Below, in pieces: positions 1 through 18,460 of a stretch of 25,061 nucleotides of DNA (positions within the stretch are counted from its first letter, which is position 1; each line of letters opens with the position of its first letter). Origin of the DNA: a virus; IMG/VR virus record IMGVR_UViG_3300025636_000037, positions 1 through 25,061 of that record; one strand, written 5' to 3'. Both the position numbers and the translations under genes were made by a program. The notes under the pieces were generated by a model. That model was given only the letters and a program-made list of their open reading frames with translations, had not been told where the DNA came from and did no database searches.

Positions 1-203
1 CCAGTACCACTTCCACCACCTTTAGCTGTACCTGTGTTTTTTTCTGTGTTTTTTTCTATTCTTTTTAGAGTAGAAAGCATGTCGGTAAATATACCAAACA
101 TTTGGCCACCTGGAGAAACAGAAGTAGCCGTGATTTGCACGGCTGCTACTGTTTTTTGCTGATTTTCTATTGAAAGTTTTTCAAATGGTGATATTAAATT
201 CAA
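1..203 (-). CDS. Start of a virion/tail protein, possibly the tape measure (partial, runs off the left edge)
   Basis: An uninterrupted minus-strand frame runs from about 203 to the window edge (67 codons seen). No ATG is available at its beginning. The best start is TTG at 203-201, giving a protein that begins M-N-L-I-S-P-F-E-K-L-S. A GTATATA box, close to the late-promoter motif found before other genes, lies about 20 bases upstream at 223-230. The visible part has a helix ending in LSTLKRIEKNTEKN, followed by a Gly/Ser-rich linker. Short 'xxLxxIExNT' helices followed by low-complexity linkers are common near the N-terminus of large phage tail proteins. The position after gp26/gp51 would fit a hub or tape-measure gene. 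The function is inference only; the reading frame itself is well supported. Confidence 0.55.
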   Translation of the reverse strand, partial: MNLISPFEKLSIENQQKTVAAVQITATSVSPGGQMFGIFTDMLSTLKRIEKNTEKNTGTAKGGGSGT

Positions 204-235: not shown

Positions 236-457
236 TTAAATTTTTGGTAGCGACATTTTAGGTGTTTTCATACTTGGCATTTTAGGTGCTTTATATGAAG
301 GCATTCCTTTTTTCATCGCTTCCATTTGATCAGTTTGATCAGAATTCTCAGAGTTTTGTTTCTTAAGGACATCTGAAAGATCTTTAATATAATACCAGTA
401 TTCATAATAATCTAAAGCTTCAATCTCTGAAGGCTGTAATTTTAAATGGTATATCAT
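236..457 (-). CDS. 51: gp51-like baseplate-hub assembly protein or frameshifted extension of gp26
   Basis: The frame is open from 556, inside the end of gp26, but the first ATG outside the gp26 stop is at 457. That gives 73 aa with N-terminus MIYHLKLQPSEIEALDYYEY. In T4, gene 51 (baseplate-hub assembly) directly follows gene 26, and the size and place match; I could not confirm sequence homology. The first half is helical and aromatic (DYYEYWYYIKDL). The second half is polar, then basic with repeated K-x-P-K-M motifs (KAPKM, KTPKM). No clear ribosome-binding site precedes 457. The frame is +1 relative to gp26, and gp26 ends in CTT TAA, so this segment may instead be made as a C-terminal extension of gp26 by frameshifting, like the G/GT tail chaperones of other tailed phages. 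An independent start remains possible. Confidence 0.5.
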   Translation of the reverse strand: MIYHLKLQPSEIEALDYYEYWYYIKDLSDVLKKQNSENSDQTDQMEAMKKGMPSYKAPKMPSMKTPKMSLPKI

Positions 458-469
458 ATAGAACTTTGT

Positions 470-485
470 CTTAAAGAAGTTCTCC
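470..485 (-). promoter_or_regulatory. Candidate +1 programmed frameshift site at the end of gp26
   Basis: The minus strand reads GGAG-AACTT-CTT-TAA-G. A Shine-Dalgarno-like GGAG (485-482) lies 5 bases before a CTT codon that is directly followed by the stop TAA. Slipping +1 from CTT to TTT enters AAG ACA AAG, exactly the frame of the gp51-like ORF. The bacterial prfB site has the same logic: internal SD, then CUU, then a stop codon. Experimental use is not shown. Confidence 0.45.
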
Positions 486-1418
486 AGTGATATCCGAAAT
501 AATGAAAAGAGATTTGAGTCCGTCACGAAAATTAATAGGTACGAGGACCTCCTCATCCTCGCGCTGTACCAGCATTTCAGGTTTAATACCTACTCGCATT
601 TTCTCAGCAAGTCGGTAAACCAACATATATTTTCTTTCACTCCATCCTTGGAAATCTATTTCACCTTGGAAAATTGATCTTTCATTAAATCCTCTCCAAT
701 CCTGTTGGATATATGGTAAGATTTGTAAGAATGCTTGGTCCCATTGACCTCCGTTAACTTGTTTTGTTTTAATATAGTCTGTAACTACTTCCATGATACC
801 GATAGTTGGTGGTGCCATTTCAATAGTTCCAAATGATTTTGTTTCAATCAAAAAAGATCGAGACTCGTGTGAGTAATACTTTTCAATATCTTCAGGTATT
901 GATGATAATTGAAAATATTTAGCAGAGATTTCAACATCAAATTCTAAACCATCTTTATCTCTTGCCTGTGTCATTAATTTATTCTCAGGTTCTGGAAATG
1001 TTAAATCTCTAATAGATAAAAGAATATAAAATCTATCTTCTTCAAGAATATCCTTATATGATAACTTCTTTTTACCAGATGTTATTCTTACACAATTCTT
1101 TACGATATAGTTTAATTTTTCTTCCATATCAACTAGGTTGGTTTCATCTACAATTGAAAAGTTTCTAATCTCTCCAACCTTTGCTGCTCTAACACTAATT
1201 TTTGCATCTTCTGGGTAGAATTTACCACCAGATGGAAGTCCTTTTTCATCTATTGCATGATATCCTAAATGCACATCAGCATCTTGTGCTTTTTGTGTAT
1301 TATATCTTTCCATGTTAACAGATCCTAGATCCACACGCTCTTGTGTATCTTGTTGTTCAGCACTTTCGACGATTTTTTTATAATCGTCATTTAAATTTTG
1401 ATTTTCTTCGTTGCTCAT
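471..1418 (-). CDS. 26: Baseplate hub/assembly protein, gp26 family
   Basis: This 315-aa protein has the pattern I associate with the T4 gp26 baseplate family: an 'LPSGGKFYPED' start motif near residue 60, then a beta strand, then a helical core with VKNCVRI and a YKDILEEDRFYILLSIRDLTF segment. T4 gp26 is about 208 aa. This one is longer, with a polar N-terminal tail of about 50 residues (acidic and Asn/Gln-rich) and a longer C-terminus. The gene starts 3 bases after the stop of the ribbon-helix-helix gene (TAA-TCA-ATG), so the two are likely translationally coupled. The last codons ACT GGA GAA CTT CTT TAA form a possible +1 shift site into the next ORF. Genomic place downstream of the tube gene supports a baseplate role. 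Confidence 0.78.
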   Translation of the reverse strand: MSNEENQNLNDDYKKIVESAEQQDTQERVDLGSVNMERYNTQKAQDADVHLGYHAIDEKGLPSGGKFYPEDAKISVRAAKVGEIRNFSIVDETNLVDMEEKLNYIVKNCVRITSGKKKLSYKDILEEDRFYILLSIRDLTFPEPENKLMTQARDKDGLEFDVEISAKYFQLSSIPEDIEKYYSHESRSFLIETKSFGTIEMAPPTIGIMEVVTDYIKTKQVNGGQWDQAFLQILPYIQQDWRGFNERSIFQGEIDFQGWSERKYMLVYRLAEKMRVGIKPEMLVQREDEEVLVPINFRDGLKSLFIISDITGELL

Positions 1419-1421
1419 TGA

Positions 1422-1637
1422 TTATTTCTTTTTGAGTTTTCTTAAATTATCTTTCTTCCATTCTTTTAAATCATCAGATTTTCGGTCAATTTCCTCTCTA
1501 ATTATTTGTCTAATAAAGGCTGAAATCGAAATAGGTCTCTCACCGTTTTCGATTGCTTCATTTAAAATAATTCTATTAATTGTAGTAACTTCATCTTCAG
1601 ATAAAAGAACTTGTAGTTTCTTATTTAATTTATCCAT
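1422..1637 (-). CDS. Small ribbon-helix-helix (CopG/Arc-like) putative DNA-binding protein
   Basis: This 71-aa protein has the layout of a ribbon-helix-helix fold: a short strand (KLQVLLS, residues 7-13), a helix (EDEVTTINRIILNEAIE), then a second helix with the typical S-A-F-I-R-x-x-I-R pattern (SISAFIRQIIREEID), and a Lys-rich tail. Such proteins usually dimerise and bind DNA with the strand. It lies between tail tube and gp26, just after a terminator, and no exact GATATATA motif precedes it, so it may be driven by read-through or by a different promoter. A regulator in the middle of a tail operon is unusual. A structural or assembly role is possible too. The fold call rests on pattern only. 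Confidence 0.6.
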   Translation of the reverse strand: MDKLNKKLQVLLSEDEVTTINRIILNEAIENGERPISISAFIRQIIREEIDRKSDDLKEWKKDNLRKLKKK

Positions 1638-1721: not shown

Positions 1722-2276
1722 TTAAGCTAATACTTCTCTCCAAGTATCACATCTCCAAGTAACTTCTAACTGTTGAGCCTCTGTAGTCTCGTAGCTAAGT
1801 TCATTGGTAAATGGTAATCCTGAAGTAATAAAGCAATCTTCTAAAGTTACTGTTCTGTAGATATCACCTGCTCGGTTGAACTGTACAATTACAATTGTTC
1901 CAACATAATCCTTTTTTAAACCCATTTCACCGGTTTGAGGATCGTATTGGTTATTATACCATTGTCTCATTGATTTATATAAGTATGCTTGATTTGCATC
2001 ATTTAAGTTAAGTGAAAAGTTAATGTTCACGTCAACTGTTGTTGCATCAGGCATTCCTGCATAAGATCTAGTTGAGAACTTATATTTTTGTTCAACAGCA
2101 GCTACTTCTTTATAAAGATCTAGTCCGCCGATTGAGTTTACATGTTGAATCATTAAAGGTGCATCTGCAACACCAGCTGGTGGAAGTACTGTTACTTCAA
2201 ACAAATTTGCCTGTACTGGTTCAAACTGTCTACCTTGTCTGCTTGTCTGATCTTGTGAATAATGTGGTAAAGCCAT
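1722..2276 (-). CDS. 19: Tail tube protein, gp19 family
   Basis: This 184-aa protein (T4 gp19 is 163 aa) directly follows the sheath gene, as in T4. The N-terminus has a short polar stretch, then FEPVQANLFEVTVLPP, the first strand of the tube beta-sandwich. Later segments match the family: the VNSIGGLD-like region, YAGMPDATTVDVNINFSLN, a YLYKSMRQWYN helix, and a C-terminal LEVTWRCDTW strand. The protein polymerises into hexamer rings forming the inner tube through which DNA passes. A GATATATA motif sits 20 bases before the ATG, and a strong terminator follows, so tube mRNA can be made as a separate single-gene transcript. That fits the large amount needed per virion. Confidence 0.93.
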   Translation of the reverse strand: MALPHYSQDQTSRQGRQFEPVQANLFEVTVLPPAGVADAPLMIQHVNSIGGLDLYKEVAAVEQKYKFSTRSYAGMPDATTVDVNINFSLNLNDANQAYLYKSMRQWYNNQYDPQTGEMGLKKDYVGTIVIVQFNRAGDIYRTVTLEDCFITSGLPFTNELSYETTEAQQLEVTWRCDTWREVLA

Positions 2277-2314: not shown

Positions 2315-4711
2315 TTATAGAAAGTTTCCTGTTGAAATTTCTCCAGTGTTTAAGACTGTTGTTCTGTGAACTACAATTTCTAAACCTTTAACTGGCTCAA
2401 CATATGTATCGATGATACCGAAATTCTGGTCAATCACGTCATTTGTGTTATTTGATTGATCCATAATGTTTCTGTATTCAAATACACCACCATCTTGTTT
2501 TACACTTTCCATGAAAGAATCTACAACCGTCTTAATTTCTAAACGAGTTTGAACATTATTAAATTCAAAAACGTAATCTTTTAAGATATCTGCAATACCT
2601 TCTTGGATATAAATCAATGCTTCTCTAACGTGTGCTGAAGAAAGTGCTGATTTAATTGATTGTTGTGCTGTTTTGTTACCCGTGATGGTTAAACCTACAC
2701 CTCTTTGGAAAACTATTGGGTTAATTCCAAATGGCTCTAAAACATCTCTATCTGATTTGTCAAAAGAATATTCAGCTCCTTTAACATTTATACCAGATAC
2801 TACACCTCTACGTGGTCCAGCAACAATTGACCATGGAAGGGCAGTTGTATACTTATCTAAATAGTTGTTAGCTACATAAGCAGCTGGTGGAACGATAATA
2901 TCTTTACCGTTATCACTAACTATTAAACCAGGTCCATAATAGAATGCATAGTTTGCTCCATCTTGAATTGATGGTAATGCATATATTTTAGTTGGGTTTT
3001 TATCTAAGTTACCTCCTTGTGCAATATATGCAGTATTGAAAGTTCCGTTTTGATCTGTAAATGATGGATCTGTCGAAGCTTTAAAATCTGCAACTGTTGG
3101 TGCATTCAAAATAGCTGAAGCATTTTGTCTGTCCATTGCTAATTGAGATAATTGCGCTTTGTTTAAAATTCCAGTTGAATCATAAGAAGAGAATGTATCA
3201 ACTACGTATCTAAAGTCTATTGCATCTTTATCTATTAATGTGTTGTAAACTCCATTTCCACCAACTAAAGTATTTAAACAGTCGCTAATTTCTTTAGGAT
3301 CTAAAGCTGCACCCTTTAATACAAATGGTTTATAAACTAAAGTTGCATTTTCAAATGATTTGTAGTAATATCCACCCCATGTTGCAGCTGGTGCTACGTC
3401 ACAGTAAATTGTGAAAACATATGATGCTGCAACTCCGGCAACAATTACATCACCTACTGCTGTTACAGGATTACCATCGGCACCTATAACTCCATTATCT
3501 ACATCTTCTTGTGTTGCTAATACTTCATCAATAGCCTCAGTAACTACTTTACCGATTCTCGATACTTTTGCTAATCTATCTCCTTCTTCAATTGCAGTTG
3601 CAGCCTCTACATAATCTCCAGCAGAGATGCTAATAGATGATTCAGTTGTTGTAATTTCAAAAGATGTACCGTTAACTGTATATGTTGCGGCATCACCTGC
3701 AAAATCATAAGCAATCTCTCTAGCGTTAGATTCACCAGCTATTCCAGTGATATATGAAAGTAATTCATGTTCTTCTGCTGGATTTGTTGTATGTCCAACT
3801 AAATCTAGTCCAGTTCCATTTTCATCAATTACTGCATCTTCGTTAACTGCACAGAATAATCCAGTTCTACGTGCTTCTGCATTAATAATAGATTCAATGT
3901 ATAAGTTTCTACCTTCAAGATCTTTAAATCCTGGAATCATAGAACCTGTGTATTTAGCTTCTAAAGTTACTTGACGTAAATTTGCAAATTGATCTAATTT
4001 TGTTTTGTCTAAACCTTCACCTGTAAAGAATGCCCCATATACTGGATCTGTATCCATATCAGATGGGTTAAATTCACCTTTAAATACGAAAACATCAATC
4101 ATGAAATCTGAAATATAATCAAATTCGTTCATGAATGCAGGTACTTCACCAGCACCATACCATTCTCTAGCTGTCATATCAAATTCTGCTACATCTTGTG
4201 CCTTTCTTACAAATACTGTAATTCCAGATTGCTTGATATTAGCAAAGTTAATTAATTGATTATCTGCAGGAGTTAATTCTAAAACTTTAGCATCAGACGG
4301 TGTCATAAACTTATCCATGTCGAAGAAATTAGAATACAATGTTTCTTGATTAGAATGTGCTGATAAATCACCAACAGAACCATTTGTAATTGGTTGTGCA
4401 TAGTAACCTAAATCACTATCACCAAATGAACTAACGTTTAAAGCTAGGATTGGTCCTCTTGATAATGCTTCAATAGCAGATCTATGGAAAAACATTCCTT
4501 TTCTTTCTAAGTTTCTATCAATTGAACCAAAAACATTTCTAAAGTTTTCAGTATTATCGATTAAAACTGGTGTATTGTAAGGTCCCTTTCTTGAGTGACC
4601 TACAATTAATCTTAGTGTGTCAACATTAATATTTGCAGTCTGTGACTTGTCAAATTCTAGTCTGTAAACACCACTAGATTTAAATTGTAATAATTGCGGA
4701 CTTAGTGCCAT
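2315..4711 (-). CDS. 18: Contractile tail sheath protein, gp18 family
   Basis: This 798-aa protein is longer than T4 gp18 (659 aa). The N-terminus (PQLLQFKSSGVYRLEFDKSQ, then LRLIVGHSRKGP near residue 33) is the typical sheath start with the extended arm that links subunits. The C-terminal domain (about 600-798) carries the conserved sheath features: helix REALIYIQEGIADILKDYVF, then a strand pair, and YVEPVKGLEIVVHRTTV. The middle part, about residues 330-450, is rich in Ala, Thr and Val beta strands (TYTVNGTSFEITTTE onward) and looks like an extra surface domain. Sheath subunits stack around the tube and contract during infection. A GATATATA motif lies 29 bases before the ATG. The next gene is the tube, as expected. 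Confidence 0.96.
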   Translation of the reverse strand: MALSPQLLQFKSSGVYRLEFDKSQTANINVDTLRLIVGHSRKGPYNTPVLIDNTENFRNVFGSIDRNLERKGMFFHRSAIEALSRGPILALNVSSFGDSDLGYYAQPITNGSVGDLSAHSNQETLYSNFFDMDKFMTPSDAKVLELTPADNQLINFANIKQSGITVFVRKAQDVAEFDMTAREWYGAGEVPAFMNEFDYISDFMIDVFVFKGEFNPSDMDTDPVYGAFFTGEGLDKTKLDQFANLRQVTLEAKYTGSMIPGFKDLEGRNLYIESIINAEARRTGLFCAVNEDAVIDENGTGLDLVGHTTNPAEEHELLSYITGIAGESNAREIAYDFAGDAATYTVNGTSFEITTTESSISISAGDYVEAATAIEEGDRLAKVSRIGKVVTEAIDEVLATQEDVDNGVIGADGNPVTAVGDVIVAGVAASYVFTIYCDVAPAATWGGYYYKSFENATLVYKPFVLKGAALDPKEISDCLNTLVGGNGVYNTLIDKDAIDFRYVVDTFSSYDSTGILNKAQLSQLAMDRQNASAILNAPTVADFKASTDPSFTDQNGTFNTAYIAQGGNLDKNPTKIYALPSIQDGANYAFYYGPGLIVSDNGKDIIVPPAAYVANNYLDKYTTALPWSIVAGPRRGVVSGINVKGAEYSFDKSDRDVLEPFGINPIVFQRGVGLTITGNKTAQQSIKSALSSAHVREALIYIQEGIADILKDYVFEFNNVQTRLEIKTVVDSFMESVKQDGGVFEYRNIMDQSNNTNDVIDQNFGIIDTYVEPVKGLEIVVHRTTVLNTGEISTGNFL

Positions 4712-13083: not shown

Positions 13084-13587
13084 ATGGCATATAATAAAAA
13101 ATATCCTAATATCCAAAGGACTGGAGGTCCATATCCAAGAAATCGATATGGTGTTAAATATAATTCAATCTCAAAACAACAACGTAGATTATTATTAGAA
13201 CATCCAATATTAAAAGAACGAGCTCAAAGTGATCAATTCTTACATATCATTTTTGAGATTTGTAGATATCATATGTCTGATAAGAATAGCAAATATTATT
13301 ATGATTGGTCTAAAAATGAATTTTCACAATTAGATGAATTAAAGGATAGTTATAAGACTATTGAATGGAAATGTGCTTTAAGTGATTTACCAATTGAAGC
13401 TAAAATTGATAACTTTAGTGCTAAAAACTTTGTACATCCCAAGTACCATGATACGCTAGGAGGTGCAGTAGATAACCGGATATTAAAATCTTCTATTACT
13501 TTTCGTAAATATGTAAAAAAAATCCTCTTGCGAGAGCAAAAGGATTTTATGAGATTAGCAAAAAAGAATTCTAATTCTAAATTATAA
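13084..13587 (+). CDS. Unknown 167-aa protein, the only rightward gene
   Basis: I do not recognise this 167-aa basic protein. Its N-terminus is Tyr/Asn/Pro/Gly/Arg-rich (MAYNKKYPNIQRTGGPYPRN) and probably disordered. Residues 30-70 are helical with aromatic and His/Cys residues (FLHIIFEICRYHMSD), and the C-terminus is helical and Lys-rich. It starts at ATG 13084 and ends TAA 13585-13587. It overlaps the leftward 400-aa gene by a few bases at the convergent ends (stops at 13582-13584 and 13585-13587). Uninterrupted length, lack of a competing minus-strand gene and Lys/Asn codon use like its neighbours support a real gene. It stands divergent to the clamp loader, so it is likely an early or middle gene. 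Confidence 0.82.
   Translation: MAYNKKYPNIQRTGGPYPRNRYGVKYNSISKQQRRLLLEHPILKERAQSDQFLHIIFEICRYHMSDKNSKYYYDWSKNEFSQLDELKDSYKTIEWKCALSDLPIEAKIDNFSAKNFVHPKYHDTLGGAVDNRILKSSITFRKYVKKILLREQKDFMRLAKKNSNSKL
13514..13548 (-). terminator. Terminator of the 400-aa head gene, embedded in an antisense coding region
   Basis: Arms 13519-13531 and 13536-13548 form a 13-bp stem with a 4-base loop. On the minus strand the only non-Watson-Crick position becomes a G-U wobble, and a run of nine T follows. On the plus strand that position is a C-A mismatch, so the hairpin is tuned for leftward transcripts, although its sequence is also coding on the plus strand. Confidence 0.82.
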
Positions 13588-14784
13588 TAATCTAGAAAAT
13601 TTATCTTTAATACTTAAATTTGCATACTTAGATTCGTTTAGTTTAAAACTCATTTCTAAAGTAGTTATTTCTGATTCTAATATCATTCCTAGATTAGTAC
13701 CTTCTATTTGCCAAGATTCTTTAGCGGAAACTTTATCAATTAAATCTTGTATTTTTTTAATCTTTGATTCATCACCAGATTCTTTAGCCTTTTTCATTAA
13801 ATCATTTAACCTTGCTAATTTACCGTCTTTAGAGTTTTTATCTTTAGACTCTTCACCGTCTTTAGACTCTTCACCGTCTTTAGACTCTTCACCGTCTTTA
13901 GACTCTTCACCGTCTTTAGACTCTTCACCGTCTTTAGACTCTTCACCGTCTTTAGACTCTTCACCGTCTTTAGACTCTTCACCGTCTTTAGACTCTTCAC
14001 CGTCTTTAGACTCTTCACCGTCTTTAGACTCTTCACCGTCTTTAGACTCTTCACCGTCTTTAGGTTCCTTTGGTTCACCGCCGCCTTTCTTATCTTTTGC
14101 TTCTTGTTCTAGTCTTTCTTTTTCTTTTTTAATCTGTTCTGCGTTTTTATCTTCAAAGTCTTCAATTGCCTGCTCTTCTTCTTTAGCCTTCTGAACTAAT
14201 TCTTTCATTTTAGTCTTAAGATCTGCTTTTTTATTTGGATCATCTTCCATACCAGTAGTTCTTTTAATGATCTCTAGCTGTCCTTTAATTTTTTCTTTAG
14301 CAATTCTAGCATCTACAATAGCTCCTTTGCTACTGAATTTATCATCAACCATTTTTTGAAGTTCAGTTGCTTGTAGTTTTACTTTTGGTAATTTAGCTTT
14401 GATTGCCTTTGCCTTATCGCCATCTGCTTGATCTGCTGCAAATTCAAGATCTGCTGCATTCATTTTAATTTTATTAACTTTTTGCTGTGCCTTAGCAGCT
14501 TTCATACTAATAAACCACTGTTTAATTATATCTCCTGCACTAGCTTCATTAACCACTAAATCAGATTCTTCTAATTTTAAACTTTCTTTTAATTCACTAG
14601 AAAGAGTTTCTAATGAAGTCATAATAGAATCTACATCATTAATAATAACTTCTCTATTACTTTTAGGTTCTGTAGTTGCTATAGCAGGTTCGGTTGCTGC
14701 TACAGTAGGTTCTTTAGTCGCAACTGTAGGTTCAGATATCTGTTCATTAATTAAATTATACCAATTGTTAAATGTTTTCATCAT
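13582..14784 (-). CDS. Acidic coiled-coil prohead/internal protein with a 12-copy DGEESK repeat
   Basis: This 400-aa protein lies directly after the capsid gene. It begins MMKTFNNWYNLINEQISEP, which resembles the 'MKTxxxF/WxxxxxE' capsid-targeting peptides of T4 internal proteins. Next come three EPTVATK-type heptads (18-40), a possible protease site VVNE-ASAG at 77-84, then a long helical Lys/Glu/Asp-rich region (about 85-245) with KDKKGGG at its end. The repeat DGEESK occurs 12 times in perfect tandem, giving a net negative charge of -2 per unit. The C-terminus resumes a helical domain (LARLNDLMKKAKESG onward) and ends NLSIKDKFSRLL. Charge, place and N-terminus suggest a prohead core or DNA-associated internal head protein. 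The exact role is not known to me. Confidence 0.8.
   Translation of the reverse strand: MMKTFNNWYNLINEQISEPTVATKEPTVAATEPAIATTEPKSNREVIINDVDSIMTSLETLSSELKESLKLEESDLVVNEASAGDIIKQWFISMKAAKAQQKVNKIKMNAADLEFAADQADGDKAKAIKAKLPKVKLQATELQKMVDDKFSSKGAIVDARIAKEKIKGQLEIIKRTTGMEDDPNKKADLKTKMKELVQKAKEEEQAIEDFEDKNAEQIKKEKERLEQEAKDKKGGGEPKEPKDGEESKDGEESKDGEESKDGEESKDGEESKDGEESKDGEESKDGEESKDGEESKDGEESKDGEESKDGEESKDKNSKDGKLARLNDLMKKAKESGDESKIKKIQDLIDKVSAKESWQIEGTNLGMILESEITTLEMSFKLNESKYANLSIKDKFSRLL
13847..14062 (-). repeat. Coding minisatellite: 12 identical 18-bp units
   Basis: The unit on the plus strand is GACTCTTCACCGTCTTTA, coding DGEESK on the minus strand. Twelve units run without interruption from 13847 to 14062, and I saw no base difference among them. 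A degenerate unit follows on the right. The 18-bp period keeps the frame. There are no spacers, so it is not a CRISPR. Confidence 0.96.
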
Positions 14785-16486: not shown

Positions 16487-18460
16487 TTACTTTTTAAATC
16501 TTTTAGCTAAAGACTCTTGTACTCCTGTTAAATCGTATGGTAATGATTTAGTTTCCTCTTTTGATTCATTTACTAATTCAACTTTTTCCATTACTTGAGC
16601 AGTTTCTCTTAAGTCTCTTGTTTGCCAGAAATTAGTTACTTGATATTGAGTTTCTAATTTGTGATATTTAGACTGTGCTAAGATTTGATTCTTTTTAGCT
16701 TCTGATAACCTTGAAAATGTTTCTTTATATTCGTTTGGCATCATTTTAATTACGTTAGGCTCATTTGAATTTGGAGCATCTGTAATTAATGCAGCATTCC
16801 ATAATCCTAAGATTTGACCTTCAGTTAAGAATCCTTTACCTTCAACTGCGTTTAATACTTTAGATTTATCAGCAGTTTCTAATTCATTAAAATTGTTACG
16901 AGTAGATTCAGATACAAAACGGAAGAAGTGTGGCTCTGTAGTTTTCTTTTCTTCAGCTTTATTAATTAATGCTTGTAATTTTTCAGTGATTGAATTTTTA
17001 TAAGCATCTAATGTATCATCTTCTTCAGCAACTAAGTTTTCATCTTCTTCAGCAGCTTCCGGCTCTCCTTCGTCATTTATAGTGTCTTCGATTTCTTCAG
17101 CTCTATCTTCTTCTACTTTGTAAGTTTTTCCGTCGAATTCAAATTCAGATTCACCAGCTTCTTTAGCTTTTCTAACTGCGTCTCCGAAAGCATTACCTTC
17201 TTCAACTTCTCCAGCCTCAGAAATTTCTTCACCTTCGGCATCTCCTTTACCTTCTAAATCATCTTCTAATTCTTTAGAATCATCTGACTTCTCTTCACCG
17301 TGTTCATATTCTTTACCTTCAGCATCTACTGTTGGCTCAGTAACATCTTTGTTATCTTGCTCATCTTCTATTTCTTCAACTTCTTTACCAGCACCTTCAT
17401 CATCAGATTCAACGATTAAATTAGTGTTTACAGTTTCAGCTACATATTCAGCATATTCAGTTACTTTTTCTAAGTTACCTTTTAAATAGTCAATATACTC
17501 TAAAAGATTTTCATGAGTTGTTGCTCCTTCATTATAAGACTCTGCTAAATAGTTAGTGTAACCTTTAATTTTTTCCATACCTTCTGCAAGGTGCTCTGAA
17601 TATTGAATAGATTGATCTAATTTTTCAGCTAAAGATTCTGAGTATTGTATAGATTGATCTGTTTTTTCAGCAATATGTTCTGAGTATTGGATTGCTTGAT
17701 CTAGTTTTTCACTAAGATAATTAACATAGTTTTCTAGTTTAGTAGTCGTAGACTCATCTTCCTTAGTGTTAGCTTCATTTAAGCCTTCTTTAAGAGACTT
17801 AATTTCTTCAGCTAAGTACTTAGAATACTTGTTAAAGTCTTCAACCGTGATAAATTTTGATTCAGCCATTTTTTCTTCTGGTTTATTTTCTGTTATAATT
17901 TGTGTTTGTTCTTGTTTATTTATCTCAAAAATTTGGATGTCATCATCCATTGAGAAACCGTAAGATTCATTTACTCTAACCAATTCAGCATTTTCAAATC
18001 CAGGATCTGCTACTAAATCGTATGTAAATAATTGTTTAATTTTAACCTTACCATTAGATTCTACCGCACCGGCAGCTCTACTTGAAATTTGAAGTGGTAC
18101 TCCAGCATCTACTAATGCCTTTGCTTGACGCCCGGCATCTGTATCTAATAAACGGATACGTCCTTTAATTTGTTTATTACCTTCATCGTAATTTATTTCT
18201 TCTATAATGTGAGATACATTCTTTAAAGAAACATCAAAATTTTGAGGGTGGTCTAATTCTCCTAATAATTTAGAAGCTTTAATTTTAGCTTGTAAAGCTT
18301 CGATTTGTGGTAGATATTCTTCCGCTGTATAAATACGGTTGTTGCGGTTTTTCTTATCTAACTCACCAAAGACACCTTCTAATACATATTTACCATCTTC
18401 CGATGAAAATTTTAATTCAGAGGATGATTTTTCTATGATTAATAAATCCTTTGTGTTCAT
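16487..18460 (-). CDS. 21: Prohead protease fused to an acidic coiled-coil scaffold (gp21-gp22 type)
   Basis: This 657-aa protein combines two T4 functions. Residues 1-165 are a gp21-type serine protease: LEGVFGELDKKNRNNRIY near 27-44, the catalytic-His motif GELDHP with H71, NVSHIIEEI at 81-89, and the catalytic-Ser motif LQISSRAAG with S126/S127. It matures the head by cutting core and capsid proteins. Residues 200-350 are a coiled coil with 14-residue repeats (YSEHIAEKTDQSIQ, YSESLAEKLDQSIQ, YSEHLAEGMEKIKG). Residues 350-490 are extremely acidic, and a helical C-terminal domain follows (NFWQTRDL near 620). The last two parts look like scaffold gp22, separate in T4. An internal ATG (17869) begins MAESKFITVEDF and could start the scaffold alone. 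VRVNES at 161-166 could be an autocleavage point between the parts. Confidence 0.93.
   Translation of the reverse strand: MNTKDLLIIEKSSSELKFSSEDGKYVLEGVFGELDKKNRNNRIYTAEEYLPQIEALQAKIKASKLLGELDHPQNFDVSLKNVSHIIEEINYDEGNKQIKGRIRLLDTDAGRQAKALVDAGVPLQISSRAAGAVESNGKVKIKQLFTYDLVADPGFENAELVRVNESYGFSMDDDIQIFEINKQEQTQIITENKPEEKMAESKFITVEDFNKYSKYLAEEIKSLKEGLNEANTKEDESTTTKLENYVNYLSEKLDQAIQYSEHIAEKTDQSIQYSESLAEKLDQSIQYSEHLAEGMEKIKGYTNYLAESYNEGATTHENLLEYIDYLKGNLEKVTEYAEYVAETVNTNLIVESDDEGAGKEVEEIEDEQDNKDVTEPTVDAEGKEYEHGEEKSDDSKELEDDLEGKGDAEGEEISEAGEVEEGNAFGDAVRKAKEAGESEFEFDGKTYKVEEDRAEEIEDTINDEGEPEAAEEDENLVAEEDDTLDAYKNSITEKLQALINKAEEKKTTEPHFFRFVSESTRNNFNELETADKSKVLNAVEGKGFLTEGQILGLWNAALITDAPNSNEPNVIKMMPNEYKETFSRLSEAKKNQILAQSKYHKLETQYQVTNFWQTRDLRETAQVMEKVELVNESKEETKSLPYDLTGVQESLAKRFKK
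17499..17723 (-). repeat. 14-residue coiled-coil repeats in the protease-scaffold protein
   Basis: Residues about 246-320 contain four to five tandem units of two heptads, the central three very similar (YSExxAEKxDQSIQ). The matching DNA is also repetitive (ATTGATCTA-type blocks spaced 42 bases apart), so the coiled coil grew by duplication. Confidence 0.75.

Follow-up and report, generated by a model that had tools for sequence, protein, structure and literature searches.

On the minus strand of the window, here the whole 25,061-nt stretch of viral DNA that was analyzed (IMG/VR record IMGVR_UViG_3300025636_000037), an open reading frame of 315 amino acids (1418-471) ends with ACT GGA GAA CTT CTT TAA G, and a second open frame overlaps its end. 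The phage is distantly related to T4, and the locus raises the question of how this second frame is translated, and where ribosomes would leave the first. A preliminary description, made from the letters alone, had noted that the second frame lies +1 after CTT (AAG ACA AAG), is open as far as 236 and back to 556, and has at 457 an ATG without a Shine-Dalgarno-like sequence upstream, all of which was confirmed, position 556 being an ATG; it had proposed a +1 slip at CTT-TAA, of the kind used by release factor 2 (prfB) genes, that would fuse a T4-like gp26 to gp51 across a GELL-KTK junction. The overlap itself is real and not due to chance, since nearly all relatives share the relative phase of the two frames and all 23 clade representatives end in GAA-Leu-CTT-TAA. 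As argued below, the locus very likely encodes a tail assembly chaperone pair whose long form would arise by a change of frame further upstream, at T_CTT_TTC (510-504), by -2 (favored) or +1.

Locus layout and remote homology

Homologs were collected by tblastn with the protein, which recovered Lak megaphages, uncultured jumbo phages, and phages of Chryseobacterium, Tenacibaculum, Flavobacterium, and Sphingomonas, and by a scan of viral contigs, which gave 80 loci of 48-94% identity. The clade of the window (clade 1) was represented by 22-23 sequences of <90% nucleotide identity, with a tree of 54 distinct sequences used for parsimony; a second clade of 52 sequences was fetched with a megaphage homolog, and no relatives of MA9V were found among viral contigs. 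The parts of the locus are as follows.

2315-4711, minus strand: tail sheath gene (phrog_34521 tail sheath, E 1.5e-129)
1722-2276, minus strand: tail tube-like gene, upstream of the chaperone (phrog_3629 tail tube, E 6.6e-6)
471-1418, minus strand: TAC-N, the putative gp26-like tail assembly chaperone, short form, 315 aa, zero frame (open reading frame; profile-profile match to T4-like gp26; AlphaFold model)
504-510, minus strand: proposed slip site T_CTT_TTC, with T at 510, CTT at 509-507, and TTC at 506-504, codons -12/-11 of the gp26-like frame (invariant motif; the constraint switches frame)
474-503, minus strand: dual-coded segment, comprising the short-form tail IISDITGELL in frame 0 and the start of the C domain, within SLFRISLENFF, in the other frame (synonymous shares)
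471-476, minus strand: CTT-TAA, the slip site of the preliminary description
471-473, minus strand: TAA stop of the short form (TAA in 23/23 representatives)
236-505, minus strand: TAC-C, the gp51-like C-terminal extension, predicted to be read only after the shift (SLFRISLENFFKTKFYMIYHLKLQPSEIEALDYYEY...), with its stop at 238-236 (phrog_634; profile match to the cyanophage extension; helix in the model)
3-203, minus strand: 5' end of a tape-measure-like gene, cut by the end of the window (place, and length and hydrophobicity in relatives)

The genes are ordered sheath, tube, chaperone, and tape measure, the sheath and tube being recognized by profile, whereas only length and hydrophobic stretches point to the tape measure. 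At the tape-measure place, relatives carry an open reading frame of at least 750 to 900 amino acids with 8-12 hydrophobic stretches; a PHROG search with the tape-measure-like gene returned no match, and we infer from its place, and from length and hydrophobicity in relatives, that the gene downstream of the chaperone pair is a tape measure. A small open reading frame with a weak ribbon-helix-helix match (1422-1637, minus strand) lies between the tail tube and chaperone genes, an odd location for a DNA-binding protein. Elsewhere in the window, an 18-bp repeat (KDGEES) occurs in 12.4 perfect copies at 13841-14063, inside the open reading frame 13582-14784, and a 42-bp repeat occupies 17595-17715.

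Neither protein has a Pfam family or useful match, and in the PHROGs search the 315-aa protein matched an unnamed family, while the downstream protein gave a weak match to “baseplate hub assembly catalyst” (the gp51 family). The family profile of the window, searched directly against T4 gp26 and gp51 alone, also found no significant match, and profiles were therefore compared with profiles. By hhalign, the gp26-like short form scored 49.4 against the T4-like family (15 shuffled controls, ≤23.9) and the C-terminal extension 49.3 against the cyanophage gp51-type extension (shuffled controls, ≤12.4); the fused G and T frames scored 104.9 against the fused T4-like family, and the best of 15 shuffled controls scored 19.1. 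The BFVD matches of the AlphaFold model of the short form (pLDDT 83) included T4-like baseplate hub assembly proteins. Foldseek against the PDB returned nothing significant (best E 0.18), and a second PDB comparison placed the HK97 tail assembly chaperone 2ob9 in the top row (Z 5.7, next 3.3; rmsd 5.6 over 86 residues). By profile comparison, the 315-aa open reading frame is a remote homolog of gp26 and the overlapping downstream frame is a gp51-like C-terminal extension, and the suggestion that the two form a G/GT-type pair was supported by the fused profile score and the BFVD matches.

Position of the frame switch

Among 22-23 representatives, codons up to -16 vary mostly in the wobble base of the gp26 frame, and from codon -10 on the variation falls mostly on the first base of gp26-frame codons, equivalent to the wobble base of the downstream frame; the frame under constraint switches 33 nt (about 35) upstream of CTT-TAA, at codons -12/-11. 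Where residues of the gp26 frame exchange (Ile/Val/Leu, Gln/Ser, Ala/Ser/Thr, Ile/Leu/Phe), the residue of the downstream frame almost always stays the same. The synonymous share of differing codon pairs was 0.377 in the gp26 frame and 0.057 in the downstream frame over codons -30 to -16, and 0.096 and 0.713, respectively, over codons -11 to -2. Constraint on the gp26 frame, including Lys-Ser/Gly with a change of Ser codon family, lasts to codon -13. Parsimony on the 54 clade 1 sequences assigned 14/21/72 changes to gp26-frame positions 1/2/3 before the slip site, 1/0/0 on it, and 28/8/9 from the slip to the stop (p about 1e-9), and 46/23/136 to the positions of the downstream frame after the stop; the corresponding counts for the 52 sequences of the second clade were 36/36/83, 0/0/0, 14/3/8 (p 0.003), and 60/21/152. 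This codon-position constraint, seen in both clades, implies that the downstream frame is read before the ribosome reaches CTT-TAA, and the substitution patterns place it under amino-acid selection already 33 nt before that point.

The protein comparisons bear on the same place. If the downstream frame is begun at the slip, the gp51 profile (phrog_634, baseplate hub assembly catalyst) matches it from residue 2 (E 2.8e-4), and this match is lost when the frame is begun at CTT-TAA. In the model of the T domain, a helix of residues 7-21 spans the CTT-TAA junction with a pLDDT of about 90, and in that of the short form the confident fold stops near residue 305, at the slip codons, the final residues being poorly predicted.

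Three other routes to the C domain were weighed against this evidence. The RF2-like slip, in which GGAG would stimulate a +1 move at CTT-TAA and join GELL to KTK, is very improbable and was rejected for the clade of the window. The site does resemble prfB, where CUU followed by a stop is a known +1 site, in that the first frame closes with CTT and a stop, and CTT-TAA is kept in all 23 representatives; Lak phages (TTT TAA) and L192 (CTT TAA) likewise have a shift-prone codon before UAA. However, the selected frame is already the new one 33 nt upstream, so AAC TTC TTT AAR (Asn-Phe-Phe-Lys) in the other frame largely accounts for the conservation of CTT-CTT-TAA, and the gp51 profile match disappears with this junction. 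The GGAG is present in 17 of the 23 representatives and missing in 6, and lies 5 nt from CTT rather than the 3 nt of prfB; Bacteroidota ribosomes generally miss Shine-Dalgarno sequences, and the prfB site itself keeps a perfect one there (PMC8710568). Comparison of relatives, which the preliminary description had called for, upheld the conserved CTT-TAA within the clade and the common phase, but the short frame of the second clade ends AAA GAA TAA, without any shift-prone codon. With selection on the downstream frame from codon -11, a GELL-KTK peptide would be missing from the main product.

Translation of the C domain as a separate protein would need a start of its own, and many relatives have no start codon ahead of the conserved QPSE region; together with the common phase, this makes a shift, rather than a separate gene, the natural reading. 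A new-frame ATG is lacking from -89 to +51 in 6/23 representatives. Initiation inside the gp26-like gene without fusion, at a GTG at -53 or -50 or at another codon, is quite improbable: although most representatives have such a GTG, it is missing in L002, L093, and the L034/L036 group, it is a by-product of the gp26 residues Arg-Asp or Gly-Gly encoded there, and gp26-frame constraint continues beyond it to codon -13; an internal start also leaves no role for the invariant motif or for its match to the -1 slip position of other phages. Termination at 473 followed by restart at the ATG at 457 is hardly credible, as conservation reaches upstream of the stop and none of ATG, GTG, and TTG occurs within the first 17 codons of 8/23 representatives, even though the window and its nearest relatives do have an ATG 14 nt past the stop.

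The proposed slip motif and the direction of the shift

The bases at the frame switch are nearly invariant. Across the 54 distinct clade 1 sequences, TTC is without change and codon -12 varies between C and A only, and ATT TTC is unchanged in the 52 sequences of the second clade. T_[CA]TT_TT[CT] recurs in PAU, PTm1, MA9V, MaF61, L010, L013, and the second clade, and in most of the six named cases the new frame starts FSLF or FSL-like; elsewhere within these genes, the motif was found in-frame at 3 of 6923 codons. T invariably precedes the slip codon, even though other bases would be permitted by several codons, and TTT is never seen at the slip codon, where it may be avoided because the -1 heptamer would re-form and lead into the wrong frame. 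Because its extension lies in the +1/-2 frame, T_[CA]TT_TTC differs from the canonical -1 tandem-slip form X_XXY_YYZ. Neither upstream nor downstream was a conserved stimulatory RNA structure detected (no pair by RNAalifold; single-sequence z -0.81).

Several variations accompany the motif. At codon -15, ahead of the slip (532-510 in the window, and in relatives), Ile is encoded by ATC in 20/20 Ile-coding representatives, and this invariant codon may be part of the shift signal. At the equivalent place, Lak phages have ATA TTC and Tenacibaculum phage pT24 (L012) has ATT GTC, even though the two frames of pT24 keep the common phase. Lak and relatives (L003, L005, L190-L192) have no [CA]TT_TTC; their short frame ends TTT TAA T or CTT CTT TAA T, their extension carries an insert of ~50 aa, and these phages may truly shift +1 at the stop.

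The new frame can be reached from the slip site by -2 or by +1, and the sequence by itself is compatible with both. A +1 move of tRNA-Leu from CUU to UUU is rather unlikely, despite being the commoner kind of route into such a frame (PMC5009743) and involving the same re-pairing as in prfB; a +1 shift on a similar pyrimidine stretch, UCC_UUU_CGU, is reported for influenza A (PMC3498833). In the second clade, MA9V, PTm1, and two clade 1 subclades, ATT occupies the slip position, so that a +1 move there from AUU to UUU would create a first-position mismatch, and +1 slippage leaves the invariant T before the slip codon and the invariant TTC without a reason. Re-pairing from UUC to UUU, by comparison, is cognate at all clade 1 and clade 2 loci. 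For these reasons, namely the always cognate UUC to UUU move, the invariant T, and the mispairing of ATT slip codons in +1, the slip is probably -2.

By the preferred -2 route, most ribosomes would read the gp26-like frame to the TAA at 473-471 and produce the short form, TAC-N, of 315 aa, and a minority would shift at T_CTT_TTC and produce a long form, TAC-NC, ending in the ~90 residues of the gp51-like C domain. The tRNA-Phe would leave UUC and pair fully with the overlapping UUU, the preceding Leu or Ile tRNA would keep its middle pair with the invariant T, and the predicted junction is K-SLF-SLFR, versus K-SL-SLFR by +1. Both chaperone forms would precede translation of the tape-measure-like gene; as in lambda G/GT, coating of the tape measure may fall to the short form and recruitment of tube subunits to the C domain.

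Comparison with known tail assembly chaperones

Two papers (PMC10885494 and PMC12846349) credit Vladimirov, Gautam and Davidson (2022, Virology 566:9-15) with recognizing gp26/gp51 as the chaperone pair of T4, with polyT -1 sites in relatives; the link that the preliminary description drew between these proteins and the chaperone system of other phages holds but had already been published. T4 was listed in 2016 as an exception to G-T frameshifting (PMC5009743), an exception that the 2022 paper reportedly settled as separate genes for the short and long chaperones. Both T4 proteins match phrog_150, gp51 having an additional C-terminal part. Klebsiella phage Roth22 (L103:940-2234) also has two chaperone-like genes, the longer with a C-terminal extension followed by the shorter, but unlike those of T4 they adjoin on one strand.

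In cyanophages and in KVP40-like, Aeromonas, Rhizobium, and Stenotrophomonas T4-like phages, gp26 ends on T_TTT_TT[CG] with the extension in the -1 frame, and T_TTT_TTC with a gp51-like -1-frame extension was present in 79 of 83 distinct sequences from cyanophage and other T4-like loci (L096-L189). These pairs share with the window a homologous short protein and C-terminal extension ahead of a tape-measure-like gene, and in most of them the slip position is the same; however, their T_TTT_TTC leads into the -1 frame, whereas T_[CA]TT_TTC here leads into the -2/+1 frame, and in the clade of the window the stop lies 10-13 codons past the slip, so that the overlap is dual-coded. Homologous chaperone pairs in T4-like phages would thus be built in three ways: by a -1 shift, by a shift to the other frame (-2 or +1), or as two genes. 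New here, among relatives of Bacteroidota phages, is a version that combines a probable -2 (or +1) shift with a dual-coded segment. On balance, we lean toward a scenario in which a whole T4-related branch associated with Bacteroidota hosts kept the site but changed its chaperone shift from -1 to -2, T_TTT_TTC becoming T_[CA]TT_TTC, with a U-rich prokaryotic -2 slip and a dual-coded segment as the result. Annotation calls for caution, as the C domain is missed or shortened in annotated relatives: the entries of MA9V, PAU, and P-SSM7 begin too late, gp51 of P-SSM7 being annotated publicly as a 31-aa open reading frame with too late a start.

Chaperone frameshifts set the ratio of short to long forms needed for tail assembly. 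Like the pair proposed here, lambda G/GT lies ahead of the tape measure gene and yields a short and a long chaperone through a frameshift close to the end of its first gene, but the lambda shift is -1, and its proteins have no detectable sequence relation to those of the window. The -2 sites of arterivirus nsp2TF and Trichomonas vaginalis virus 1 have an NUU_UUU core, resembling CUU_UUC here. Both viruses infect eukaryotes, however, and the arterivirus shift requires a viral protein. The two -2 shifts are reported in PMC5009743. Few examples of -2 shifting are known, and the locus offers a conserved, compact prokaryotic site for its study. The chaperone pair of phage Mu also has a reported -2 shift (PMC5009743); as read here, its site is CGG_GGG, upstream of the stop, where a tRNA that slipped back by two bases could pair with an identical codon, a G-rich site in contrast to the U-rich Phe site of the window.
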